DNA from: a bacterium | GTDB taxonomy: Bacteria; Actinomycetota; Acidimicrobiia; Acidimicrobiales; Bin134 | DNA length: 64,000 nt | Assembly (NCBI GenBank): GCA_026705465.1 | Contig: JAPPAP010000024.1 | Location: 45,895 to 109,894, forward strand | Direction of reading: 5' to 3' | In this document: piece by piece, positions 5,166 through 56,148 of the stretch | Layout: each line of letters begins with the position of its first letter | Position numbering within the stretch: position 1 is the first letter of the stretch | Position numbers and translations under genes: made by a program | The notes under the pieces: model-generated | Told to the model about the DNA's origin: nothing | The model's database searches: none | Seen by the model: the letters and a program-made list of their open reading frames with translations, nothing else

Positions 5166-7751
5166 TTGCTAGCGCCTGCTCGTTCGTTGCCCGCTCGCTC
5201 TCGCCGTAGCTGTCGTGGCTCCTTCGGGCGGTCGGCCGTTGGCCGAATCGGCCTCGCCGTAGTCGCGGTCGTATCCATTTTTGCCTCGCTCTGGTCTTTG
5301 CCAGCGAGTGCCGACGAACACGGGGACGAAGATGGCTCTGCCCGCGATCGACGGGCGCTGGTTGCCCTGTACGAGGCCGCCGGTGGGGACGACTGGAGCA
5401 ATTCCGGGGGATGGCTGAGCGATGCCCCTCTGGGCAACTGGTATGGCGTGACTGCGGACGATGAAGATCGGGTTACCGGGCTGTCAATGGCGTCCAACGG
5501 CTTGGTGGGGGAGCTGCCCGCTGAGATCGGCAACCTCGAGAACCTGGAGTACCTGGACTTGGGCAATAACGAACTCGTGGGGGAGCTGCCCGTTGAGATG
5601 GGAGGCCTTGTCAGCCTCGTCGAACTGGATCTTCAGAACAACCGCTTGGAGCGCGGCATTCCCGTTGAATTCGGAGAGCTTTCTCAGCTGACGGTGCTCG
5701 ATCTCAAGTACAACGGCCTGTGGGGGGCGATTCCCCCTGAGCTCGGCCAGCTCGGCGAGCTTCGTATCTTGGATTTGCGGGGCAACGTGTTATCGGGAGA
5801 GATTCCTGCCGAATTGGGCAGCCTGTCAAAACTGACCCACCTGATGCTGAGGTTCAACGGTTTGTCGGGGGAGATCCCAGTGGAACTGGGGGAGTTGGAC
5901 CGCCTTGAGTGGCTGGATCTCAGCAATAACGGTTTGTCGGGGGAGATCCCGGCCGAGTTGGGCGGTCTGCGCAGGCTCGTGTGGTTGGATTTCAACAATA
6001 ACGGTTTGTCGGGGGAGATCCCGGCCGAGCTCTCCAGCCTTTCCCAGTTGCGGCGCCTCAACTTGACGGGCAACGGATTGTCAGGGGGAATCCCCGCGGA
6101 TCTCGGTCGTCTGACTGAGCTCCGGTACTTGTCGCTGTCGGCCAACGACCTGGATGGGAGGATCCCCTATCAACTGGGCCGTCTCGAGAATCTCCAAGTG
6201 CTTCGGCTTGGGCACAACAGGCTCTCGGGGCAAGTTTCTACCGAGTTGGGCAGACTGGGGCGGCTCACCCTGCTGTGGCTGGAGGACAACAACCTCTCGG
6301 GGGCGATTCCCTCGCAGTTGGGCAAGTTGACGCAGCTCAGGGAGCTGGATCTCAGCGAGAACGGATTGTCGGGGGAGATTCCTGCCGAGTTGGGCAATCT
6401 GGGGGGGTTGACGCGGCTGTCCCTCCAAGACAACGGATTGTCGGGGGAGATTCCTGCCGAGTTGGGCAATCTGGCCGAACTGGAACACATCGACCTCAGC
6501 AACAACTGGCTTTCGGGAACCATTCCAGAGGGGATTGGGTCGATGGCCGGACTCAAGAGCCTGTTGCTCCACGACAATCTGTTGTCCGGCGATATCCTGG
6601 CGGGGATTGGCGAGTTGGGCCGGTTGGGGGTGTTGGATCTCTCCAACAACCGGCTGTCGGGGGATATCCCGACGGAGATCGGCGGTTTGAGCAAGTTGGG
6701 GGTGTTGGATCTTTCCAACAACCGGCTGTCGGGCGAGATACCGGAGGAGATCGGCAAGCTGTCGAGCCTTGTGTACCTGGACCTGCGCAGCAACCGGCTC
6801 ACGGGAGAGATCCCCGCCCACCTCGCTGAGCTCCAGGCGCTCACCCACCTGCTGCTGCGGGACAACCAATTGTCCGGGGAGGTCCCTGCCGAGCTTGGTG
6901 GATTGGCCAACCTGATATGGCTTGATCTGAGCATCAACTTCTTGTCGGGAGAGATCCCCGAGGAACTAGGCCAGCTAGAAAACCTTCAAGCGCTTTATCT
7001 GAGCTACAACGGCCTGACCGGCAAGCTGCCCTCAGAGTTAGGCGAGCTGGCGAACCTGAAGCACCTGATGATTCGCCGCAACCAGTTGGAGGGAGAGATC
7101 CCCGCCGAGTTGGGCCAGTTGGTTAATTTGGAACGGCTCAACCTGTGGGCGAACCAATTGTCAGGGGAGATTCCCGTTGAGTTGGGCAATCTCACCAATC
7201 TGACGAGGCTGGACCTCGACAACAATGAACTGTCGGGAGAGATCCCTGCTGCGTTAGGCAGGCTCATCAATCTGCGAGAGCTGTGGCTGAACGACAATCT
7301 GCTAAGTGGAGAGATTCCCGCCGAATTGAGCAGCATGATCAATTTGAGGCGTCTGTACTTAGACGGCAATCAGTTGACCGGTGGGATTCCCGCCGAATTG
7401 GGCGAACTCAGGAGCCTCACGCGCCTGTGGGTGAATGGCAATCAGTTGACTGGTGGGATTCCCGCCGAATTGGGCGAACTCAGCGAGCTGACCTATTTGT
7501 ACATTGGCAACAACCTCCTGAGCGGGGAGATCCCCGCGGCGCTGGGCAAACTGGGCAACTTAACGCATGTATATATCGGCGACAATCAGCTCACCGGCGA
7601 AGTGCCCGCCGAACTGGGCAACCTCGGCAAACTCGTCCGGCTGTACATCAGCGGCAACCAGCTCACCGGTTGCCTACCCGCGGCCTGGGAAACAGCCAAC
7701 CTCAAGGGCAGCGACTTGGAGTCGCTCGGTCTGGCCTTCTGCGAGGAGTGA
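5166..7751 (+). CDS. Secreted leucine-rich-repeat protein, plant-type (LxxLxLxxNxLSGxIPxELGx) repeats
   Basis: Signal-peptide-like N-terminus (IGLAVVAVVSIFASLWSLPASADE), LRR N-cap (RRALVALYEAAGGDDWSNSGGWLSDAPLGNWYGV), about 30 consecutive 24-aa repeats, C-cap ending GLAFCEE. TTG start. Confidence 0.9.
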   Translation: MLAPARSLPARSRRSCRGSFGRSAVGRIGLAVVAVVSIFASLWSLPASADEHGDEDGSARDRRALVALYEAAGGDDWSNSGGWLSDAPLGNWYGVTADDEDRVTGLSMASNGLVGELPAEIGNLENLEYLDLGNNELVGELPVEMGGLVSLVELDLQNNRLERGIPVEFGELSQLTVLDLKYNGLWGAIPPELGQLGELRILDLRGNVLSGEIPAELGSLSKLTHLMLRFNGLSGEIPVELGELDRLEWLDLSNNGLSGEIPAELGGLRRLVWLDFNNNGLSGEIPAELSSLSQLRRLNLTGNGLSGGIPADLGRLTELRYLSLSANDLDGRIPYQLGRLENLQVLRLGHNRLSGQVSTELGRLGRLTLLWLEDNNLSGAIPSQLGKLTQLRELDLSENGLSGEIPAELGNLGGLTRLSLQDNGLSGEIPAELGNLAELEHIDLSNNWLSGTIPEGIGSMAGLKSLLLHDNLLSGDILAGIGELGRLGVLDLSNNRLSGDIPTEIGGLSKLGVLDLSNNRLSGEIPEEIGKLSSLVYLDLRSNRLTGEIPAHLAELQALTHLLLRDNQLSGEVPAELGGLANLIWLDLSINFLSGEIPEELGQLENLQALYLSYNGLTGKLPSELGELANLKHLMIRRNQLEGEIPAELGQLVNLERLNLWANQLSGEIPVELGNLTNLTRLDLDNNELSGEIPAALGRLINLRELWLNDNLLSGEIPAELSSMINLRRLYLDGNQLTGGIPAELGELRSLTRLWVNGNQLTGGIPAELGELSELTYLYIGNNLLSGEIPAALGKLGNLTHVYIGDNQLTGEVPAELGNLGKLVRLYISGNQLTGCLPAAWETANLKGSDLESLGLAFCEE

Positions 7752-46213: not shown

Positions 46214-47086
46214 ATGCTCCAGCGGATCAAGCGTCGGCCGATCCTCTGGTCGGTGGTGGCGGTCGCCCTTGTCTTGCTCGTATTGCTGGCCATCGGGCTG
46301 TGGTGGTGGCTGAGGGATGATGCTCCGGCAAGAGTCAACCTTGGTGCGGCCGTTTCCACGGTGGAAGAAGATTTGGTCGAAGCAACCGAGACGCCCACAG
46401 CGGCTCCTACGGCAATTCCAACTCCTCCCGAAGCGGCCGACGACTCCACCACGGAGCCAACTCCAACCGCGGCGCAAACCGCAGCTGAACCTGAGGCTCA
46501 GCTCACCGAAGACATCGACGCCCAGGGGGTGGATGGTAAGTGGGTCATCGACACGTCCGTGGCCGGGTTCGACTACGACGAGTCAACCGGCACTTTCGTC
46601 GGCTTCCGTGTCGAAGAAGAGCTGGCCAGCATCGGCTCGACTACCGCGGTGGGCCGCACCCCGCTGGTCAGCGGATCGATCACCATTGATGGTGAAACGG
46701 TGACCTCGGTGACGGTCGAAGCGGACATGACCGGGGTCATAACTGATGACAGCCGCCGTGATCGCGCCATCCAGTCCGCGCTCAGCACCCGCAATTTCCC
46801 CACGGCAGTCTTCTCGCTCACCGAGCCCATCGACCTGGGTGATGACCCTGGCTCCGGCGACCCCATCACCACGACCGCCGTTGGCGAGCTCACCGTCAAA
46901 GACATCACTCGCATCGTCGAGATCGCGTTAGAGGCCCAACTGGTGGATGACACCGTCGTTGTCGTCGGCTCCACCGAGGTGGTCTTTGCCGACTATGACG
47001 TATCTGTCCCCCAAGTCCCCATCGTGTTGTCAGCCGAAGACCACGGCACCGTCGAACTCCAACTGTTCTTCACTCGGAGCCCCTGA
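46214..47086 (+). CDS. Membrane-anchored YceI-family protein
   Basis: N-terminal TM, PT-rich linker, YceI-like domain (GKWVIDTSVAGFDYDESTGTFVGFRVEEEL...TTAVGELTVKDITRIVEIALEAQ). Confidence 0.85.
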   Translation: MLQRIKRRPILWSVVAVALVLLVLLAIGLWWWLRDDAPARVNLGAAVSTVEEDLVEATETPTAAPTAIPTPPEAADDSTTEPTPTAAQTAAEPEAQLTEDIDAQGVDGKWVIDTSVAGFDYDESTGTFVGFRVEEELASIGSTTAVGRTPLVSGSITIDGETVTSVTVEADMTGVITDDSRRDRAIQSALSTRNFPTAVFSLTEPIDLGDDPGSGDPITTTAVGELTVKDITRIVEIALEAQLVDDTVVVVGSTEVVFADYDVSVPQVPIVLSAEDHGTVELQLFFTRSP

Positions 47087-47255
47087 GGGCTGGGAGGCCG
47101 CCTATCTCATAGTGATCCGGGAACTTGGCGCGATAGGGTGCCCTCTGCGCCGGAATGCGGCGCCCACGTCGGAGTGGCGGAATTGGCAGACGCGCTAGCT
47201 TGAGGGGCTAGTGCCCAATACGGGCGTGGGGGTTCAAGTCCCCCCTCCGACACCA
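46964..47255 (+). repeat. Left copy of a 292-bp direct repeat (yceI 3' end, spacer, tRNA-Leu)
   Basis: Aligns without gaps to 55638..55929 (offset 8674); 47013..47255 (243 bp) is identical by eye. Confidence 0.95.
47168..47255 (+). tRNA. tRNA-Leu (anticodon GAG), CCA encoded
   Basis: Acceptor GTCGGAG/CTCCGAC, anticodon arm CTAGC-TTGAGGG-GCTAG, T-arm GGGGGTTCAAGTCCCCC, long variable arm, 3' ACCA. Confidence 0.96.
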
Positions 47256-47462
47256 TCGAACTCCCTGGTCAGAGCGTGTGCCGAGGCTCCCAGGGGTGTA
47301 GTTCTGAGTATAGATCTGATCATGGTGAAGCTGGCACGCTGGTGAGCTCCGGCACGGCAGCCGACGCAACGACATTAAAGACCATCAGAGCGCGAGGCGG
47401 AGGTCAGCGGCCCCCGAATCTGTTCATCGTGCTTCTCCCGGTCTGGTGGCGGCCTTGTTTGA

Positions 47463-47786
47463 TCAGTCGATGGTCAGCTCACCCATTCGGCTCCAGTCGT
47501 TCTCGCCTTCGATCACAGTGTTGATGATGTGAGGGGTCTCGGCCAGAGCATGAGGCATGTCCTGCATGGCTTGTTTGAAGTGGTCGCTCTCGACGTGCGG
47601 CCCTGCGCCGTCGTCCTCGAACGCCTCGCAGAGGACGAACTCGTTGGGATCCTCGACGCTGCGGGACCAGTCGAACCAGAGGTTCTTGGGCTCGGCGCGA
47701 GTGGCCGCAGTGAAGTCTGCGACCATGCCCAGCCAGCGATCGGACCACTCGGGCTTGGTCTTGAACTTGACGACGATGAGGATCAC
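47463..47786 (-). CDS. ABM/YgiN-type quinol monooxygenase-like protein
   Basis: Small ferredoxin-like-fold pattern: VVKFKTKPEWSDRWLGMVADFTAATRAEPKNLWFDWSRSVEDPNEFVLCEAFEDDGA...HVESDHFKQAM. Confidence 0.85.
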   Translation of the reverse strand: MILIVVKFKTKPEWSDRWLGMVADFTAATRAEPKNLWFDWSRSVEDPNEFVLCEAFEDDGAGPHVESDHFKQAMQDMPHALAETPHIINTVIEGENDWSRMGELTID

Positions 47787-47789
47787 GGG

Positions 47790-48902
47790 TCAGCCCGTTG
47801 CGTCGCTGCCCAGCGGAGCCCACGCAAGCAGCGATGCGTCACCCTCGAACACATTCGCCACCAGCGGAGTGCCCGCGGCCTCAGCGATTGCCTTGTACTG
47901 CATCCACGACAGCACCATGGCGATGGGGGTGCCAGCGCCTTCGTCGAACTGCACCGGCCCATAGACGCAGGCGGTGTAGATGAGGTCTTCGTCGCCGAGC
48001 TGCTGGGTGGCCTCGTGACGGGCCCCGGCGGGCTCGTAGAACCACATCCCGGCTCCGAAGCCCTCGGGTGGGCCGGCCCGGTAGCCGATGCGGCCGGAGA
48101 TCACCAAGAAGTCGGCGGCACCGAGGTGATAGTGGGGCCCGGCAACGCCGTTGTGCTTGAAGATCATCGACACGTGGCCGGTCTCCTCACTCACGCGCAG
48201 GATCTTGTAGCCGAACTCGGGCACCTCCGGGTCGACGAAGAAGTCGAAGGCAGTGGTGTCGACGAAGTGCGGATGTGTCGGCGCGTCGGACGCCACGGAC
48301 TTGGCGGCCACCAGGGTTTGTGACGCTGCCTGCTCGGCGATGGCCAGCGGGGTGGGTTCGGCAGTGGCCACCTCGGGCCGGGGCACCATGCACTCGGCCA
48401 AGCTGTTGGGGACCAAGGACAGCCCATTCGCGTGAGCCGCAGCCTCGATGTCGAGCGCAGTCAGGATGCTCGTGATGCTGTGGCCGTCCGTGTCCAAGAA
48501 CGCAACCGGGCCATGGGAGTTCAGCAGAATCTCTACGTCCTCGTCGACCTCGAGCCCCTCGACGCGGGAGTTGGCCGGGATGTAGCCCCAGGTCCCGGTC
48601 TCGATCGTGGCCGCCAACGGTTCCTGGGTGTAGCGCATACGCCCTGAAAGCACGAAGAGGTCGGCGGCGCCCAGGTGCACGGTCATCCGCAACGCCACCC
48701 CGGCGTCGAGCCCCAGGATCATCGAGAACACGCCGGATTCGTTCGAGGCCCGCAACGGCTTGATGCGCCACCCCGGCGCCTGTGGCGACTCGATCCAGGG
48801 CAGCGCGTTGGTGTCTGCACCACCCTCGATACCAGTGGGAACGATGTCTGGTGAATAGCCGGTCGTTGCGGTCATTGTGGGCCTCTTCTCTGACTGTTCC
48901 AC
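47790..48902 (-). CDS. Bicupin protein
   Basis: Two internally similar cupin cores (MTVHLGAADLFVLSGRMRYT...ATIETGTWGYIPANSRVE and HYHLGAADFLVISGRIGYRAGPPEGFGAGMWFYEPAGARHE). Confidence 0.82.
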   Translation of the reverse strand: MEQSEKRPTMTATTGYSPDIVPTGIEGGADTNALPWIESPQAPGWRIKPLRASNESGVFSMILGLDAGVALRMTVHLGAADLFVLSGRMRYTQEPLAATIETGTWGYIPANSRVEGLEVDEDVEILLNSHGPVAFLDTDGHSITSILTALDIEAAAHANGLSLVPNSLAECMVPRPEVATAEPTPLAIAEQAASQTLVAAKSVASDAPTHPHFVDTTAFDFFVDPEVPEFGYKILRVSEETGHVSMIFKHNGVAGPHYHLGAADFLVISGRIGYRAGPPEGFGAGMWFYEPAGARHEATQQLGDEDLIYTACVYGPVQFDEGAGTPIAMVLSWMQYKAIAEAAGTPLVANVFEGDASLLAWAPLGSDATG

Positions 48903-50170
48903 TAGCTGGTGGGCGTGAAGGTCAACGGGAATGTCCTGGGGGCCCGAACGAAGCTGCCCTCCTGCTTGGGTGGCACACCATCAGCAAAAGCGATGTCGTC
49001 CATCGCATCCAACAGATGGTTGGCGGCGGTTTCGGCCTCGAGTGCCGCCAACCGGGTGCCGATACAGAAATGACGGCCGAGCGCGAACGTTGTGTGGCTG
49101 GCCGCGCCGGTGAGCTCCCTCTCGGCGTCGAGCTCGTCGCGGAAGATGTCGAACCTCTCGGGATCCTTGAACTTGCGGGGGTCGCGGTTGGCTGCGGCCA
49201 ACATCAACGTGACCGTCGACCCCGCAGGCACGACGGTGCCGTGGAACTCGACGTCCTCGCCGGCCTGGCGCATGATCATCAGTACCGCCGGTGTGTGACG
49301 CAGTGCTTCAGCGAACGCGGAGTTGATCAGGCTGCGGTCCTCACGGACCGCCTGCAGCTGATCGGGGTTCTCCAGCAGCCGCAGCCACATGTTGGCCATC
49401 TGCAGGTCGGTCGACTCGCTCCCGGCCACCAACAAGAAGCTGACGAACGACTTGATCTCCATGTCGCTCATCTGCTCGCCGTTGATCTCGGCGTGCAGGA
49501 TCTGGCTGATCAGGTCCTCGCCGGGGTGCTCCCGTCGCTCGGCGATCAACGGCAGCATGTACTCCTGCAGCTCGCCCTTGACCCGTAGCCCGGCCGCGGC
49601 GACCTCTTCGTCACCCGAGATGTTGGTGAAGTAGTCGTGGATGGCGTTGTACCAGACGTGGAACATCGGCTTGTCGGCCGGATCGAGCCCCAGAATGTCG
49701 AGAATCACGCTCAGCGGCAGCTTCTGCGTGAACTGCTTCACTAGATCGACGTGACCGTCGCGACGCCACTCGTCGATGAGCGAGATGGTGTTGTTCACGA
49801 CGACGGACTCGAAGTTCGCCCGCAACAGATCGCCGCGTAGCGCCGGTGTGATGATCCTCCGAGTGCGTCGATGATCGGAGCCCTCTTTCTGCAGGATAGT
49901 GGGGCCGTGCACGGGCTCGAGCTGCCAGGCGTAGTTCTCCGTCGTGAACGCCGGGGACTTCAACGCCAGCTCGACGTCCTCGTGCCGCGAGATGATCCAA
50001 CTGTCCAATCCCTCATGGAATGTGATCGGGTAGTTCTCGCGCAGATCGTCGAGAATGGGGTTCGGATCGGCCTCGTACTCGGGTGACATGATGTCCGGTG
50101 CGCTCAACGCCGTTCTCCCTTGGTGGCCCACAGCGAGCGGCGCTCGCAGCCAATCAGTCGGACAAGACAA
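48902..50170 (-). CDS. Cytochrome P450
   Basis: I-helix LLVAGSESTDLQ, K-helix EALRHTP, heme loop FALGRHFCIGTRLAALEAE. Confidence 0.92.
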   Translation of the reverse strand: MSCPTDWLRAPLAVGHQGRTALSAPDIMSPEYEADPNPILDDLRENYPITFHEGLDSWIISRHEDVELALKSPAFTTENYAWQLEPVHGPTILQKEGSDHRRTRRIITPALRGDLLRANFESVVVNNTISLIDEWRRDGHVDLVKQFTQKLPLSVILDILGLDPADKPMFHVWYNAIHDYFTNISGDEEVAAAGLRVKGELQEYMLPLIAERREHPGEDLISQILHAEINGEQMSDMEIKSFVSFLLVAGSESTDLQMANMWLRLLENPDQLQAVREDRSLINSAFAEALRHTPAVLMIMRQAGEDVEFHGTVVPAGSTVTLMLAAANRDPRKFKDPERFDIFRDELDAERELTGAASHTTFALGRHFCIGTRLAALEAETAANHLLDAMDDIAFADGVPPKQEGSFVRAPRTFPLTFTPTS

Positions 50171-50421
50171 TACGCAGGAATTCGCGGTGTGGCAACCAGA
50201 TCCGGATGTAGCGGCGAATGAGGAGGAGTCCGGAGGGAGTTCTCGGCGCGGGCGGTGGCTGGTCGGTGTCGTCGATCTGCACCGCCTTTGCGATCATCCC
50301 ACCGGGCGCCTAAGGTCTGACATATTCATGATCATGGTGGTCATCAATTCACCCGAAGGGTTCCGATGCCCTTACACAAGGTGAAAGTGGTCTGAATCAC
50401 CAAACGCCAGGGAGGAAAACG

Positions 50422-51573
50422 TTGATGCGACGCGTGGGTCTGGTAAGGGTATTGGGAATCCTGTTGATGATCGCTTTGATCGCCGCCGCCTGCGGTGACG
50501 ACTCGGATGACACCGCCGTCCCGGAGCCCGCTGCAGAGCAACCAGCGGAGGAGTCGACCGAAGAGCCGCCTGGGGCGCCCGAAGATGAGCAAGCCGATGG
50601 ACTGCCCGATACGGCGTTCGGTGCAGTGCCTGAGGGCGCCACGGTGGTCGAGCTTCCCGATCCCGACTTCTCGGTGTTCGAGGGGACGACGCTCGGCATC
50701 ATTAGTGTCGTAACGACGCCGGGGACCCTGCGGCTGACCGACCGGCTTACCGCATGCGTGGAGTCGAACGGCGGCTCCGTCGACTATCAGGACATTGGCG
50801 GAATCAACTTTGACCAGGTCCAGCCGATACTCGAGGGCTTCCAAGCTGCTGGCGTCGACGTGGTGTTCAACCTCGGCATCGACATGGTCGGCCGTGAGGC
50901 TATTGCTAACGAATTCGCGAATGCTGGGGTCCCGTTCCTCATGTTCGGCGCAGTGGCTATTCCCGAGGTCGTGGCCTTCGATGCCAACCAAAAAGAGAAT
51001 GGACGCATTCTTGCCAGCCTCGTCGCGAAGGAGATCGGCGGAAGCGGTGACGTGCTTATCGTAAACTCCGGCCCGCTCAATGGAGCGCTGGCTGATCGGG
51101 AAACTGGCATGGAGGAAGTGTTCGCCAACTTCCCAGATATCACGACGACCACGGTCGATCCACAGGACTTCACGATCGAGACCGCCCAAGCCGTGACTGA
51201 GACTGCATTCCAAGCCAACCCCGGTTATGCAGCAGTGATCGGTGGCTTTTCCAATTACGGTATCGGCGTATCGTTGGCGCTCGACACTCTCGACACCGAC
51301 GCCTTCGTCGTTACGGCCGATGGGTCGGACGAAGAGTACGATCAGATGCAAGCGACGGACAACTTCCTCGCCACCATGGATGACCCCCACCGCTACGTCG
51401 CCGATCCGGCTGCCTGTACCGTCGCAGCGAGCATGCTTGCCGGCAACCCGCCCCCTGGAGCGCCTGGTATACCTATAATCGGCAGCTCTATTCTGGTCAC
51501 TAACGACGAGGTTCCGGCCGAGGGCGACTTCTTGGAATCGACCCCCCGTACCTGGTATCAACTCAGTGGGTAA
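50422..51573 (+). CDS. Sugar-type ABC transporter substrate-binding lipoprotein (Peripla_BP_4-like)
   Basis: Lipobox IAAAC, acidic/Pro linker, periplasmic-binding-protein fold sequence (GIISVVTTPG...GVDVVFNLGIDMVGREAIANEFANAGVPFLMFG). Confidence 0.88.
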   Translation: MMRRVGLVRVLGILLMIALIAAACGDDSDDTAVPEPAAEQPAEESTEEPPGAPEDEQADGLPDTAFGAVPEGATVVELPDPDFSVFEGTTLGIISVVTTPGTLRLTDRLTACVESNGGSVDYQDIGGINFDQVQPILEGFQAAGVDVVFNLGIDMVGREAIANEFANAGVPFLMFGAVAIPEVVAFDANQKENGRILASLVAKEIGGSGDVLIVNSGPLNGALADRETGMEEVFANFPDITTTTVDPQDFTIETAQAVTETAFQANPGYAAVIGGFSNYGIGVSLALDTLDTDAFVVTADGSDEEYDQMQATDNFLATMDDPHRYVADPAACTVAASMLAGNPPPGAPGIPIIGSSILVTNDEVPAEGDFLESTPRTWYQLSG

Positions 51574-51707
51574 TGCTCGGCCGCATTGATGCCGACATTG
51601 TCCCGTCAGCTGACACCAGTTCCATAAACCCCATCACCGCAGCCGGGTCCCGCCTGCCCGCTCGGCTCCGAAGCGCCCGCTATCCAGATATTTGCGTCCA
51701 GATACGG

Positions 51708-53237
51708 TCACAACCGAAGATCCGGCCCTGCAGCGCCAGGGGTTGCATAACAATGCTCGAGGACCTCGGCCTCCGTCACCGGGCCGTCGAGCTCTGCGAC
51801 AATACGGCCCTCCTGAAGCACGAGCACTCGGTGTGATACTGCAGCCACTTCCTCAAGATCCGAAGAAGCGAGGATGACTGCGACACCCGTCGCCGCGAGC
51901 TGAGCTACGAGATTCAGGATCTCTGCCTTTGCGCCGACATCGACGCCCTTGGTCGGTTCGTCGAGCAGCAAGACTTTCGACTGCTTGCCGATCAGCCAGC
52001 GGGATACCAAACATTTCTGTTGATTTCCACCAGACAATGTAGCGATCGTCTGTTCGGTGCTATTCGTAGCAATGTGCAAACGGTCGATTTCGCTCCTCGT
52101 CGCTGATCGCTCGGAGGACCGGTCGGGAAAGGGGAGCCGTGGCTTCCGGCGGAAGTTGTCCAAGTGTGCCAGCACAATGTTTTCGCGAACCGTCCGTCTC
52201 GACAAGAGGCCCTGGTCGCGCCGGTCCTCCGGCACGAGCGCGATGCCTGCGCGGATCGCATCGGCAGGCGAGCGCAACTTCAACATGCGCCCGTTGACCG
52301 CCACAGTGCCCGACGACGCTTGGTGGTGCCCGAAGATCGTCAGGAGCAATGAGCTGCGACCCGACCCGACCAGGCCACCGAGCCCGAGGATCTCGCCGGG
52401 GCGCACACTGAGGTTCACATCCTTGACCGGACCCGAGGTCAGCCCTTGTATCTCAAGGACTGGTTGCTGGGCCGCACTGAGACGTGGGGGAGATACGTTG
52501 GTTGATCCTCCCTCCACTCCGATGATGTGGGTGGCGAGCGTGGATTTGTCTGTTTCTTTGACCTCGAGGACCGTTACCGTTCGCCCGTCTTTCATGACCG
52601 TGACACGGTCGGCGATGTCCAGCACCTCGTTGAGCCGATGGGAGACGAACAGCACCGCAATGCCCTGCTCACGGAGCCTTCGAACAACGCTGAGGACGTG
52701 TTCCACCTCGGCGTCGGAGAGCGCGACAGTCGGCTCATCCATGACCACAAGCTGTGGGTCTGCTGTACACGCCCGTGCTATTGCCACCATCCAGCGCTCA
52801 GCAATGGTTAAGCTACCGACCTTCCGCTCTGGGTCGACGTCTACGTAGCCCTCGAGACGAGCCCGGGTTTCTTTAACCGCTCGACGTCTGGAGACAAAGA
52901 AGCCGGCCCGGCGAGGGAGCTTTCGACCCAGGAACATGTTTTCGGCCACGGTCATCCTGGGAATAAGTGCGACGTCCTGGTGAATGAAGTGGAGCCCGAG
53001 TTCGTCAGCTTCGTGCTCGGTGGCGATCTCTACCTCTTCGCCGCCAACTCGAATCACCCCGCGATGGCGGCGCTCGGCTCCGGCGAGAATCTTGATCATT
53101 GTCGACTTGCCAGCGCCATTCTCGCCGACGAGCCCATGGACCTCTCCCCGCAGCACTGTTAGCGCTGCCTGATCGAGTGCCTGGACCCCCGGGTATCGCT
53201 TGTCCAAGCCGACGATCTCGACGATCGGTTCTCCCAT
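51708..53237 (-). CDS. Sugar-type ABC transporter ATP-binding protein (tandem ABC, RbsA/MglA-like)
   Basis: VGENGAGKSTMIKILAGA, LLLDEPTKGVDVGAKAEI, LSGGNQQKCLVSRWL. Start placed at ATG 53237 (MGEPIVEIVGLDKRYPG); the listed ORF extends to 53567. Confidence 0.93.
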   Translation of the reverse strand: MGEPIVEIVGLDKRYPGVQALDQAALTVLRGEVHGLVGENGAGKSTMIKILAGAERRHRGVIRVGGEEVEIATEHEADELGLHFIHQDVALIPRMTVAENMFLGRKLPRRAGFFVSRRRAVKETRARLEGYVDVDPERKVGSLTIAERWMVAIARACTADPQLVVMDEPTVALSDAEVEHVLSVVRRLREQGIAVLFVSHRLNEVLDIADRVTVMKDGRTVTVLEVKETDKSTLATHIIGVEGGSTNVSPPRLSAAQQPVLEIQGLTSGPVKDVNLSVRPGEILGLGGLVGSGRSSLLLTIFGHHQASSGTVAVNGRMLKLRSPADAIRAGIALVPEDRRDQGLLSRRTVRENIVLAHLDNFRRKPRLPFPDRSSERSATRSEIDRLHIATNSTEQTIATLSGGNQQKCLVSRWLIGKQSKVLLLDEPTKGVDVGAKAEILNLVAQLAATGVAVILASSDLEEVAAVSHRVLVLQEGRIVAELDGPVTEAEVLEHCYATPGAAGPDLRL

Positions 53238-53445
53238 TGTCTCCAATGATCCTGCCTTGCCCAGTCCTGCAGCAGCAATAATAGGCGTAGCGGCCGCGTC
53301 GCCACCTGTGTTGCGTCTGATCTCGCGCGACGTTTTCCCGGCTCTTTCAGATCGCATGTGGAAGGGTTGCTGGCCTTGACATTGGAGGCCTTCAGCGACG
53401 AGTTCTGGCGAGCGAAGACCGAAGAGGGATCTGTCTGCGGAGCAG

Positions 53446-53727
53446 GTGTACGACTTGTGGATGAGGATGCTGTCTGGGCAGGTCACCCAGGCGCAGGATG
53501 CGGCGGAGGCCGGGGTGGATCGGTCGGTGATCTCGCGGTTGAGGGCGGTGGCCCGCGACGGGGCCATCGCCGCGTTGCAGGCTTCGAACCCGGGGCGGCA
53601 GGGTCAGTCTCGTCAGGAGGCGTCGGAGGCGGCGGCTTTGCGGGTCGAGGCGGGGCGGCTCCAGGCGACGGTGGTCGAGCAGGCGGTGGAGCTGGCGGTG
53701 CTGCGGAGAAAATCGCGTTGGGGATGA
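53446..53727 (+). mobile_element. Helix-turn-helix/transposase OrfA-like fragment
   Basis: Open frame reads ...SSGERRPKRDLSAEQVYDLWMRMLSGQVTQAQDAAEAGVDRSVISRLRAVARDGAIAALQAS...VVEQAVELAVLRRKSRWG; no catalytic partner ORF downstream. Confidence 0.55.
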
Positions 53728-53988
53728 GCGGCCTGGTCCTCGCCCGCGTCGACGGGGTCGCCAAAGCCGTGCTGTTGGGCCTTGTCGGCGACGCCGATCA
53801 AAAACGACGGGCCTGGCACCGGAGCCAGAAATGACCCCGGCAGCTACACTCGACAACCACAACCCGGCAGCGACCACCCGATGCTGCTTGAAACCCAGCC
53901 CAAAAAGTCGCGAAGAGTCAGACACACCTCACACCCGAGTTAGTACGGTCGGCACCGGTCGTAGCGCGAATGCGGGAGGTTCTCGACA

Positions 53989-55188
53989 GTGAAATCAGGC
54001 CCAGCTGCCCCGGCGGGCCACGGCGGCACGCTACCCCCCTCGGGGGGCTCCCGAATCGCAGGCAAATCGGACACATCATCGCCCGTTCGGCTGACAGCGC
54101 GACTGCTGCCAGTTGTCGCCCGCTATGGGACCCTCATCGTTCTCGTTGGTTTGTTGATCCTATTCTCCATCCTGAGCCTGGTCGAGCTCGGTGAGCAGCG
54201 GTTCCTTACGGGTACGAACCTCACCCTGATCCTCCGTCAGGCGGCGGTGCTGAGCATCCTGGCAGGTGGTGTGACCGTCGTGCTCGTCATGGGTGAGTTC
54301 GATCTCTCGATCACGGGCGGGCTTACCCTCGGTGGGGCGATCTTCGCACTGGCACTCGAGGGGAGCTACGTGCTCACGTGGCCGACGATCCCAGGGACCG
54401 ACGTCGGTGGCGGAGCCATCCTTCCAGACTCACTTCAGGCGAGTGTGGGCTTCGCGATTTTGCTCGGGATCGTGTTCGGAATCGTCGTCGGGCTGCTCAA
54501 CGGTTTCGTTGTCGCGCACCTGAGGGTCTCAGCCTTCATCGGCACCTTGGGGATGGCGGGCCTCATCGAGGGCTACCTGCTCCGACTGGGTGGGGGAGGG
54601 GTGTCGATTCCGGTTCGGTCTGACGTTGTTGACTTCGCTCGCGGCTCGCTGTTCGGATGGGAGTCCGGAGACCACTGGGAGATCGGCCCGCTCGACCTAG
54701 CGGGGCTCACCGTGCCCCTCATCGCCGTGCTCGCGGTTGGAGTTCTCAGCGCTTTGTGGGTTTTCCTGAACCTTACCGAGGCGGGCCGGCGAATTGATGC
54801 CGTGGGCGGCAACGCCGAAGCGGCACGGCTTGCCGGAATCAACGTCTCTCGCTATCGCATGTTGGCTTTCGTCATCACGGGCGCCACGGCTGCCGTGGCT
54901 GGCCTGGCGCTTGCTGGGGGCCGGTCTGGCTTCGCCTCGACCCTGGCGGCCAATCAGGGCTCGTTCCTGCTCCAAGCGTATACAGCCTGTTTCCTCGGGG
55001 CCGTAACCCTCCGCGAAGGAGAATTCCATATCGTTGGTACAGGTGTAGGTGCCCTGCTGATGACGACGACGACGTCGGGGCTCATCATCATCGGTGTTCC
55101 CGGCTACGGCCAGATCCTCGCTACCGGAGGCATCCTGATCGTTGCGCTCGCGGTCTCCGGCGTGGCGCGTCGTCACCAGACGCTCTGA
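53989..55188 (+). CDS. Sugar-type ABC transporter permease (RbsC-like)
   Basis: Polytopic; LSILAGGVTVVLVMGEFDLSITGGLTLGGAIFAL, GGNAEAARLAGINVSRYRMLAFVITGATAAVAGLALAGG. Confidence 0.92.
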   Translation: MKSGPAAPAGHGGTLPPSGGSRIAGKSDTSSPVRLTARLLPVVARYGTLIVLVGLLILFSILSLVELGEQRFLTGTNLTLILRQAAVLSILAGGVTVVLVMGEFDLSITGGLTLGGAIFALALEGSYVLTWPTIPGTDVGGGAILPDSLQASVGFAILLGIVFGIVVGLLNGFVVAHLRVSAFIGTLGMAGLIEGYLLRLGGGGVSIPVRSDVVDFARGSLFGWESGDHWEIGPLDLAGLTVPLIAVLAVGVLSALWVFLNLTEAGRRIDAVGGNAEAARLAGINVSRYRMLAFVITGATAAVAGLALAGGRSGFASTLAANQGSFLLQAYTACFLGAVTLREGEFHIVGTGVGALLMTTTTSGLIIIGVPGYGQILATGGILIVALAVSGVARRHQTL

Positions 55189-55205
55189 TCGCTGGCAAGG
55201 ACTCG

Positions 55206-55375
55206 ATGCGCCCGTCGGTCGGTCGTTGCGAGATCAGACCAGACGGCAAGGAGTATCAAGTCACGGCGGGCGATCTGTCGCTTGCGCACACACTGGCCGA
55301 GTTGCTGCATGACCAGGTCGGCAAGGCGGGACGCCGGGCGTGTGGAGAGGGCGGGTGCGGGGCGTGCGCCGTGAT
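55206..55375 (+). pseudogene. Truncated [2Fe-2S] domain (xanthine/aldehyde oxidoreductase small-subunit-like)
   Basis: YQVTAGDLSLAHTLAELLHDQVGKAGRRACGEGGCGACAVIV then homology ends. Confidence 0.6.
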
Positions 55376-55377
55376 CG

Positions 55378-55635
55378 TCACTCGTCCGCGCGCCAGTCGG
55401 TTGGGGTCATCCCTGTTGCGTCTCGGAACGTTCGGCTGAAGTGGGCGGTGTCGGCGAACCCGGTGGCGTACCCGATGTCTCCGACCGTCATCGACGTGGT
55501 GCGGACAAGGTGTCGAGCCTCGTCGATACGGAGGCCTGTGTGGAGTCGTGAGAAGGACGTCGCTTCGTCGCGGAGCTTGCGTGTGCGGACAGATGGAGTG
55601 CCGCGGCGAGGTCGTTGACTCTCCAGGATCTGCTG
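55378..55635 (-). pseudogene. 3' fragment of an AraC-family regulator, with an apparent frameshift
   Basis: Minus-strand reading VNDLAAALHLS then, in another frame, RTRKLRDEATSFSRLHTGLRIDEARHLVRTTSMTVGDIGYATGFADTAHFSRTFRDATGMTPTDWRADE-stop (TGA at 55378-55380). Confidence 0.75.
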
Positions 55636-55637
55636 AG

Positions 55638-55760
55638 GTCGGCGCCACCGAAGTGGTCTTTGCCGATTACGACGTCTCGGTCCCCGAAGTCCCCATCGTG
55701 TTGTCAGCCGAAGACCACGGCACCGTCGAACTCCAACTGTTCTTCACTCGGAGCCCCTGA
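55638..55760 (+). pseudogene. Truncated YceI C-terminus (duplicate of the yceI 3' end)
   Basis: VGATEVVFADYDVSVPEVPIVLSAEDHGTVELQLFFTRSP-stop matches the last about 40 residues of 46214..47086 with one Q/E difference after the junction. Confidence 0.9.
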
Positions 55761-55841
55761 GGGCTGGGAGGCCGCCTATCTCATAGTGATCCGGGAACTT
55801 GGCGCGATAGGGTGCCCTCTGCGCCGGAATGCGGCGCCCAC

Positions 55842-55929
55842 GTCGGAGTGGCGGAATTGGCAGACGCGCTAGCTTGAGGGGCTAGTGCCCAATACGGGCG
55901 TGGGGGTTCAAGTCCCCCCTCCGACACCA
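55842..55929 (+). tRNA. tRNA-Leu (anticodon GAG), second copy, CCA encoded
   Basis: Identical 88-nt sequence to 47168..47255. Confidence 0.96.
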
Positions 55930-56148
55930 CCGCTGACCTTCGATGCGACCAGGAGTTGCGCTCGGGGGCTCTCAGGGTCGCGGAGGATCTCGAGATCGAC
56001 AGCTTTGCAGACGCGTTGCCAATCCTCCGGTGAGGCGGCGGCGTCCGGGCCTTCCCTGTCGTCAGGCCGTCGCTTCCCCCGGCAAGCCCAACACCTCCGG
56101 ACCTCGGCCCAAGCGAAGCACTATGTTCGGGGCCGGCGAGGAGGCGAC

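Follow-up and report, generated by a model that had tools for sequence, protein, structure and literature searches.

Here, we describe a stretch of 64,000 nucleotides (the window) in which a direct repeat, spanning the end of a yceI-like gene and a complete tRNA-Leu(GAG) gene, changes abruptly from diverged to identical sequence within its right copy. A recombination breakpoint near position 55687 is well supported by comparison of the copies with each other and with related genomes. We give about even odds to the fuller reading, in which the right copy arose as a recombination mosaic at a tRNA-Leu(GAG) insertion hotspot through homologous recombination in the yceI-tRNA stretch. The window offers a clear, small case of diverged DNA stitched in beside a tRNA gene, with 49 nt of another allele left at the seam.

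The repeat is 295 nt long, with copies at 46964-47258 (left) and 55638-55932 (right), a spacing of 8674 nt and 287 of 295 positions identical, and it is the only near-perfect long repeat in the window. The right copy starts within yceI and holds a second tRNA-Leu(GAG). Its parts and their counterparts on the left are as follows.

46214..47086, + strand: intact yceI-like gene of 290 aa (Pfam YceI, PF04264, E 4e-16; homologues in congeners), its 3' end forming part of the left repeat copy
46964..47255, + strand: left repeat copy by repeat alignment, comprising the yceI 3' end, an 81-nt intergenic spacer and tRNA-Leu
47168..47255, + strand: tRNA-Leu(GAG) of the left copy, with encoded CCA (ARAGORN)
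55638..55686, + strand: diverged left edge of the right copy, 49 nt from another yceI copy, with 7 differences from the left copy (copy alignment)
55687..55929, + strand: identical part of 243 nt, comprising the yceI end, intergenic stretch and tRNA-Leu, matching 47013-47255 (copy alignment)
55842..55929, + strand: tRNA-Leu(GAG) of the right copy, with the same sequence as the left copy (ARAGORN)

Seven differences are crowded into the left edge, at right-copy positions 55644, 55652, 55667, 55670, 55676, 55679 and 55686, after which 55687-55929 equals 47013-47255 over 243 nt without any difference; the identical stretch stops at the CCA of tRNA-Leu(GAG), and the eighth difference, at 55930, lies immediately beyond it. 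The preliminary description had given these coordinates, the seven differences and the length of identity correctly. It had also called the differences almost all synonymous plus one Q/E change, and five of the seven are indeed silent (GAG/GAA, GAC/GAT, TAT/TAC, GTA/GTC and TCT/TCG), but the non-silent ones number two, since the S/A change at 55644 (TCC/GCC) was missing from its list beside the Q/E change at 55686 (CAA/GAA).

The sharp border had been taken as the mark of a recombination or gene-conversion breakpoint, and the comparisons bear this out. Differences number 7 in 49 nt to the left of the border against 0 in 243 nt to the right, and among 295 sites all seven would fall by chance within the first 49 with a probability of 2.4e-6. 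This rises to 1.4e-4 once the 128 positions conserved across other species are excluded; since the border was picked post hoc, both values serve as a guide only. In related species, divergence from the left copy is 10-18% to the left of the border and 9-21% to the right of it within yceI, so the identity of the two window copies on the right does not stem from conservation; since relatives vary equally on either side, a hypervariable 49 nt was ruled out as well. Further, seven yceI sequences from congeners were used to place private states. Both window copies have common states at 47049, 47062 and 47074 that occur in none of the seven, all to the right of the border, while to the left the copies share no private state and the right copy carries five private states of its own against one in the left copy. 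It is this combination of private states shared on one side and peculiar to the right copy on the other, together with significant clustering at a sharp border, that is characteristic of a recombination or gene-conversion mosaic, and the proposed test for a breakpoint near 55687 thus turned out in its favour on both clustering statistics and private states. By their shared private states the 243 nt are of the local lineage, and the comparison supports a source of the 49 nt in another yceI copy that had long been separate from the local one.

With regard to that source, the preliminary description had argued that the silent pattern pointed to a functional, diverged yceI allele of a different strain and not to decay of the local copy. 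Under neutrality, at least five silent changes among seven are expected with P = 0.02, and together with the five private states this speaks for a separate, diverged yceI copy that was probably once functional. When the changes are polarised, however, those private to the right copy comprise 3 silent and 2 non-silent ones (P about 0.13, by hand from the neutral rate), which weakens the argument from the silent pattern and leaves room for partial drift after truncation. The strain origin fared less well, as the proposed search for the donor allele found no match to the 49-nt edge, and no donor arrangement either, in the species genomes of GTDB r220, in IMG/VR or in 21 congeners (a donor yceI would be expected to end in ...VGATEVVFADYDVSVPEVPIV), and the tandem units of genome G014, described below, provide an alternative. 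An allele of a different strain is thus one option among others. The 49 nt differ from the left (a-type) yceI at 7 positions and from the b-type unit of genomes G013, G006 and G014 at 8-9, a length too short for a reliable tree, and V257 and a TTT codon are common to the edge and the left copy; the b-type paralogue of these three genomes is accordingly disfavoured as the source.

The segment between the copies and the DNA directly to the right hold the following features.

47256..55637, no single strand: inter-repeat segment with ABM monooxygenase, cupin, P450, sugar-type ABC transporter and AraC relic (gene annotation)
47463..48902, - strand: ABM monooxygenase and ChrR-cupin pair, with 76-77% DNA identity to its counterpart on the right side of this tRNA in G013, G014 and G006
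48902..50170, - strand: cytochrome P450 (Pfam PF00067)
50422..55188, mixed strands: ABC substrate-binding protein (+), ATPase (-) and permease (+) (domain and relative searches)
55378..55637, - strand: remnant of the C-terminal part of an AraC-family regulator, with a frameshift and severed at the start of the yceI stump (translation; HTH_18)
55911..56042, - strand: probable C-terminal relic of a large serine recombinase, 44 aa, with its stop inside the tRNA 3' end (...VGGGT*) and 66% identity to an ORF of G019

The AraC fragment, translated through its frameshift, matches HTH_18 with E 4e-18. The closest relative of the ABC permease among 249 genomes of the order is just 41% identical, which suggests that the ABC transporter genes are probably foreign to the genus. 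Domain annotation recognised no integrase among the genes of 47256-55637, and the regions compared gave no compositional sign of foreign DNA, with G+C of 0.625-0.645 throughout. Between the ABC genes, 53307-53932 is 83-92% identical to sites in several congeners and contains a small HTH-like ORF; it is probably an insertion-sequence remnant.

To the left of the yceI-tRNA unit, the window follows a genus-wide order of conserved genes including flavoprotein and acyl-CoA dehydrogenase, with genes that resemble pgk and tpi in sequence in the same run. To the right, the recombinase relic is followed by acyl-CoA ligase and then CobW; relic and CobW both occur in this order in G013, and CobW only in G006 and G014. 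The genes next in line in G013, G014 and G006, metallophosphatase, epimerase and KatG, sit close to the end of contig C21, and we infer that this end and the end of the window contig are neighbours. The window relic matches a C-terminal ORF adjoining the same tRNA in G019 at 66% over 44 aa (E 8e-13, and 8e-10 in a second search). It keeps just these 44 C-terminal residues, while a full-length relative in G045, an ORF of 618 aa with Resolvase, Recombinase and Zn-ribbon domains, likewise has its stop codon within tRNA-Leu(GAG). Three genomes, G013, G019 and that of the window, have recombinase relics next to the tRNA. Members of this recombinase family, which occurs across the order and whose frames end antisense in tRNA-Leu(GAG) with ...VGGGT*, are found at L123 9585-9989, L116 9422-9988, L172 12-392 and L174 31-1887 and in L176, L177 and L179; they are relics in the window's genus and full length in G045. 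The preliminary description, right on the breakpoint, had overlooked this recombinase relic, the AraC relic at the junction and the tRNA-Leu hotspot itself.

Related genomes provide precedents at the locus. In the congeners examined, sequence diverges directly past the tRNA 3' end. In G014 the yceI-tRNA-Leu unit occurs twice in tandem, both times complete, and the two units have diverged from each other. The second lies within a block with 96-99% identity to G006 over the first kilobases and mostly 92-97% to G013, whereas core genes reach about 86%. The block runs from L119 17445 to about L120 13490, roughly 15 kb, mostly at 92-99% identity to G006 or G013. Judged by its identity, it is a recent between-species transfer beside tRNA-Leu, and as the block exceeds the core level and brings its own yceI-tRNA unit, cross-species transfer yielding tandem copies does occur at this locus. 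Additionally, tRNA-Leu-like relics of 80-82% identity, which ARAGORN did not call, precede the second yceI of G014 (L119 17807-17894) and the yceI of G006 (L118 14162-14249). In G012, a pair of tRNA-Leu(GAG) genes is separated by 5 kb (L125 9097-9191 and 14137-14223), the first differing in its 3' half. Across the order, we tentatively suggest, at somewhat less than even odds, that large serine recombinases have their attachment site at the 3' end of tRNA-Leu(GAG), with the integrase gene ending in the tRNA, and that repeated capture and decay together with homologous transfer of whole yceI-tRNA units shuffle the locus genus-wide.

For the window itself, the recombination reading would start from an incoming segment that ended in an AraC remnant fused to a diverged yceI tail. 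Pairing would have involved the tRNA for one of its arms and the yceI tail for the other, in the simplest case with the two arms on different sister chromosomes. About 8.4 kb of new DNA would then have come to be flanked on each side by the resident 243 nt, through duplication or copying over, and 49 nt of the yceI arm that came in would have stayed at the seam. A circular donor integrating through a single crossover may have led to an identical arrangement, with gene conversion homogenising the copies afterwards. The cut of AraC at the start of the yceI stump, the permease lacking a close relative in the genus and the G014 precedent count in favour of an incoming segment; its limits are the diverged arm of only 49 nt, an assembly of 40 contigs, the flat G+C and a competence or phage route that is not evident.

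An older tandem paralogue could account for much of this, and we regard it as possible though rather unlikely: a second yceI would have been eroded by a deletion that fused the remainder to AraC, and gene conversion would have evened out the 243 nt, leaving the edge of homology unconverted. Such unconverted ends are expected near the limit of homology, the polarised changes are compatible with partial drift, the complete tandem units of G014 and the tRNA-like relics upstream of yceI in G006 and G014 are of the right kind, and the flank of the right tRNA resembles the G013 order, that of G006 and G014 sharing CobW only. The 49 nt are nevertheless nearer to the left a-type gene than to the b-type and share V257 and TTT with it, so that the copy was probably not the old paralogue of G014. 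Sister-paired duplication, circle with conversion and old paralogue with conversion all lead to the same end state and are inseparable from one genome.

Alternatively, the assembly may have joined reads of two strains over the identical 243 nt, in which case the copies would belong to different chromosomes or be arranged in another order. Such a chimera is unlikely, although the assembly comprises 40 contigs, the named congeners are metagenome-assembled, the perfect repeat is longer than usual short reads and the window holds no second repeat of this kind, for the left flank agrees with the gene order of the genus on that side, the recombinase relic and CobW of the right flank both have counterparts to the right of this tRNA in G013, as CobW does in G006 and G014, the genes next in that order lie near the C21 end, and G+C is uniform. 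If a mobile element had integrated site-specifically at the 3' end of the tRNA gene in the classical way, making the repeat an att duplication, this would explain why identity terminates precisely at the tRNA CCA and why a serine-recombinase relic adjoins the right tRNA. We rejected this scenario as very improbable: the 292-nt repeat including the yceI tail is too long, the duplicated DNA starting within yceI, 204 nt ahead of the tRNA, and going well past an att core, the recombinase relic sits to the right and outside the insert, in which no integrase was recognised, and the diverged 49 nt are left unexplained. A search of the window for a further att copy matched only the two tRNAs.

Overall, the right copy is an ordinary recombination mosaic of a known kind. 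In the transformation of Streptococcus pneumoniae, a small donor pairing with two sister chromatids gives tandem duplications (PMC3784515), and as proposed here, two donor parts in these merodiploids paired at separate sites on sister chromosomes, yielding a direct duplication of resident DNA with a new chimeric joint (PMC3784515). One duplication studied there was laboratory-made and spanned 107.4 kb (PMC3784515), whereas that of the window spans 243 nt and is deduced from sequence. Gene conversion between direct repeats, as in concerted evolution, likewise leaves a mosaic of identical and diverged parts with a sharp border, although one event and a two-step history are here not separable with one genome. 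The locus also resembles tRNA-gene hotspots of genomic islands in the divergence of congeners right past the tRNA and in the recombinase relics beside it, but its repeat consists of the whole tRNA with upstream DNA and not of the 3' end alone.

These comparisons indicate a tRNA-Leu hotspot in sponge-associated Acidimicrobiales, together with a serine-recombinase family ending in the tRNA. The source bacterium is akin to sponge symbionts, and the block transfer in G014 offers a case for direct study. Elsewhere in the window, 5496-7699 holds an array of 72-nt repeats within one coding region, leucine-rich-repeat-like in character.
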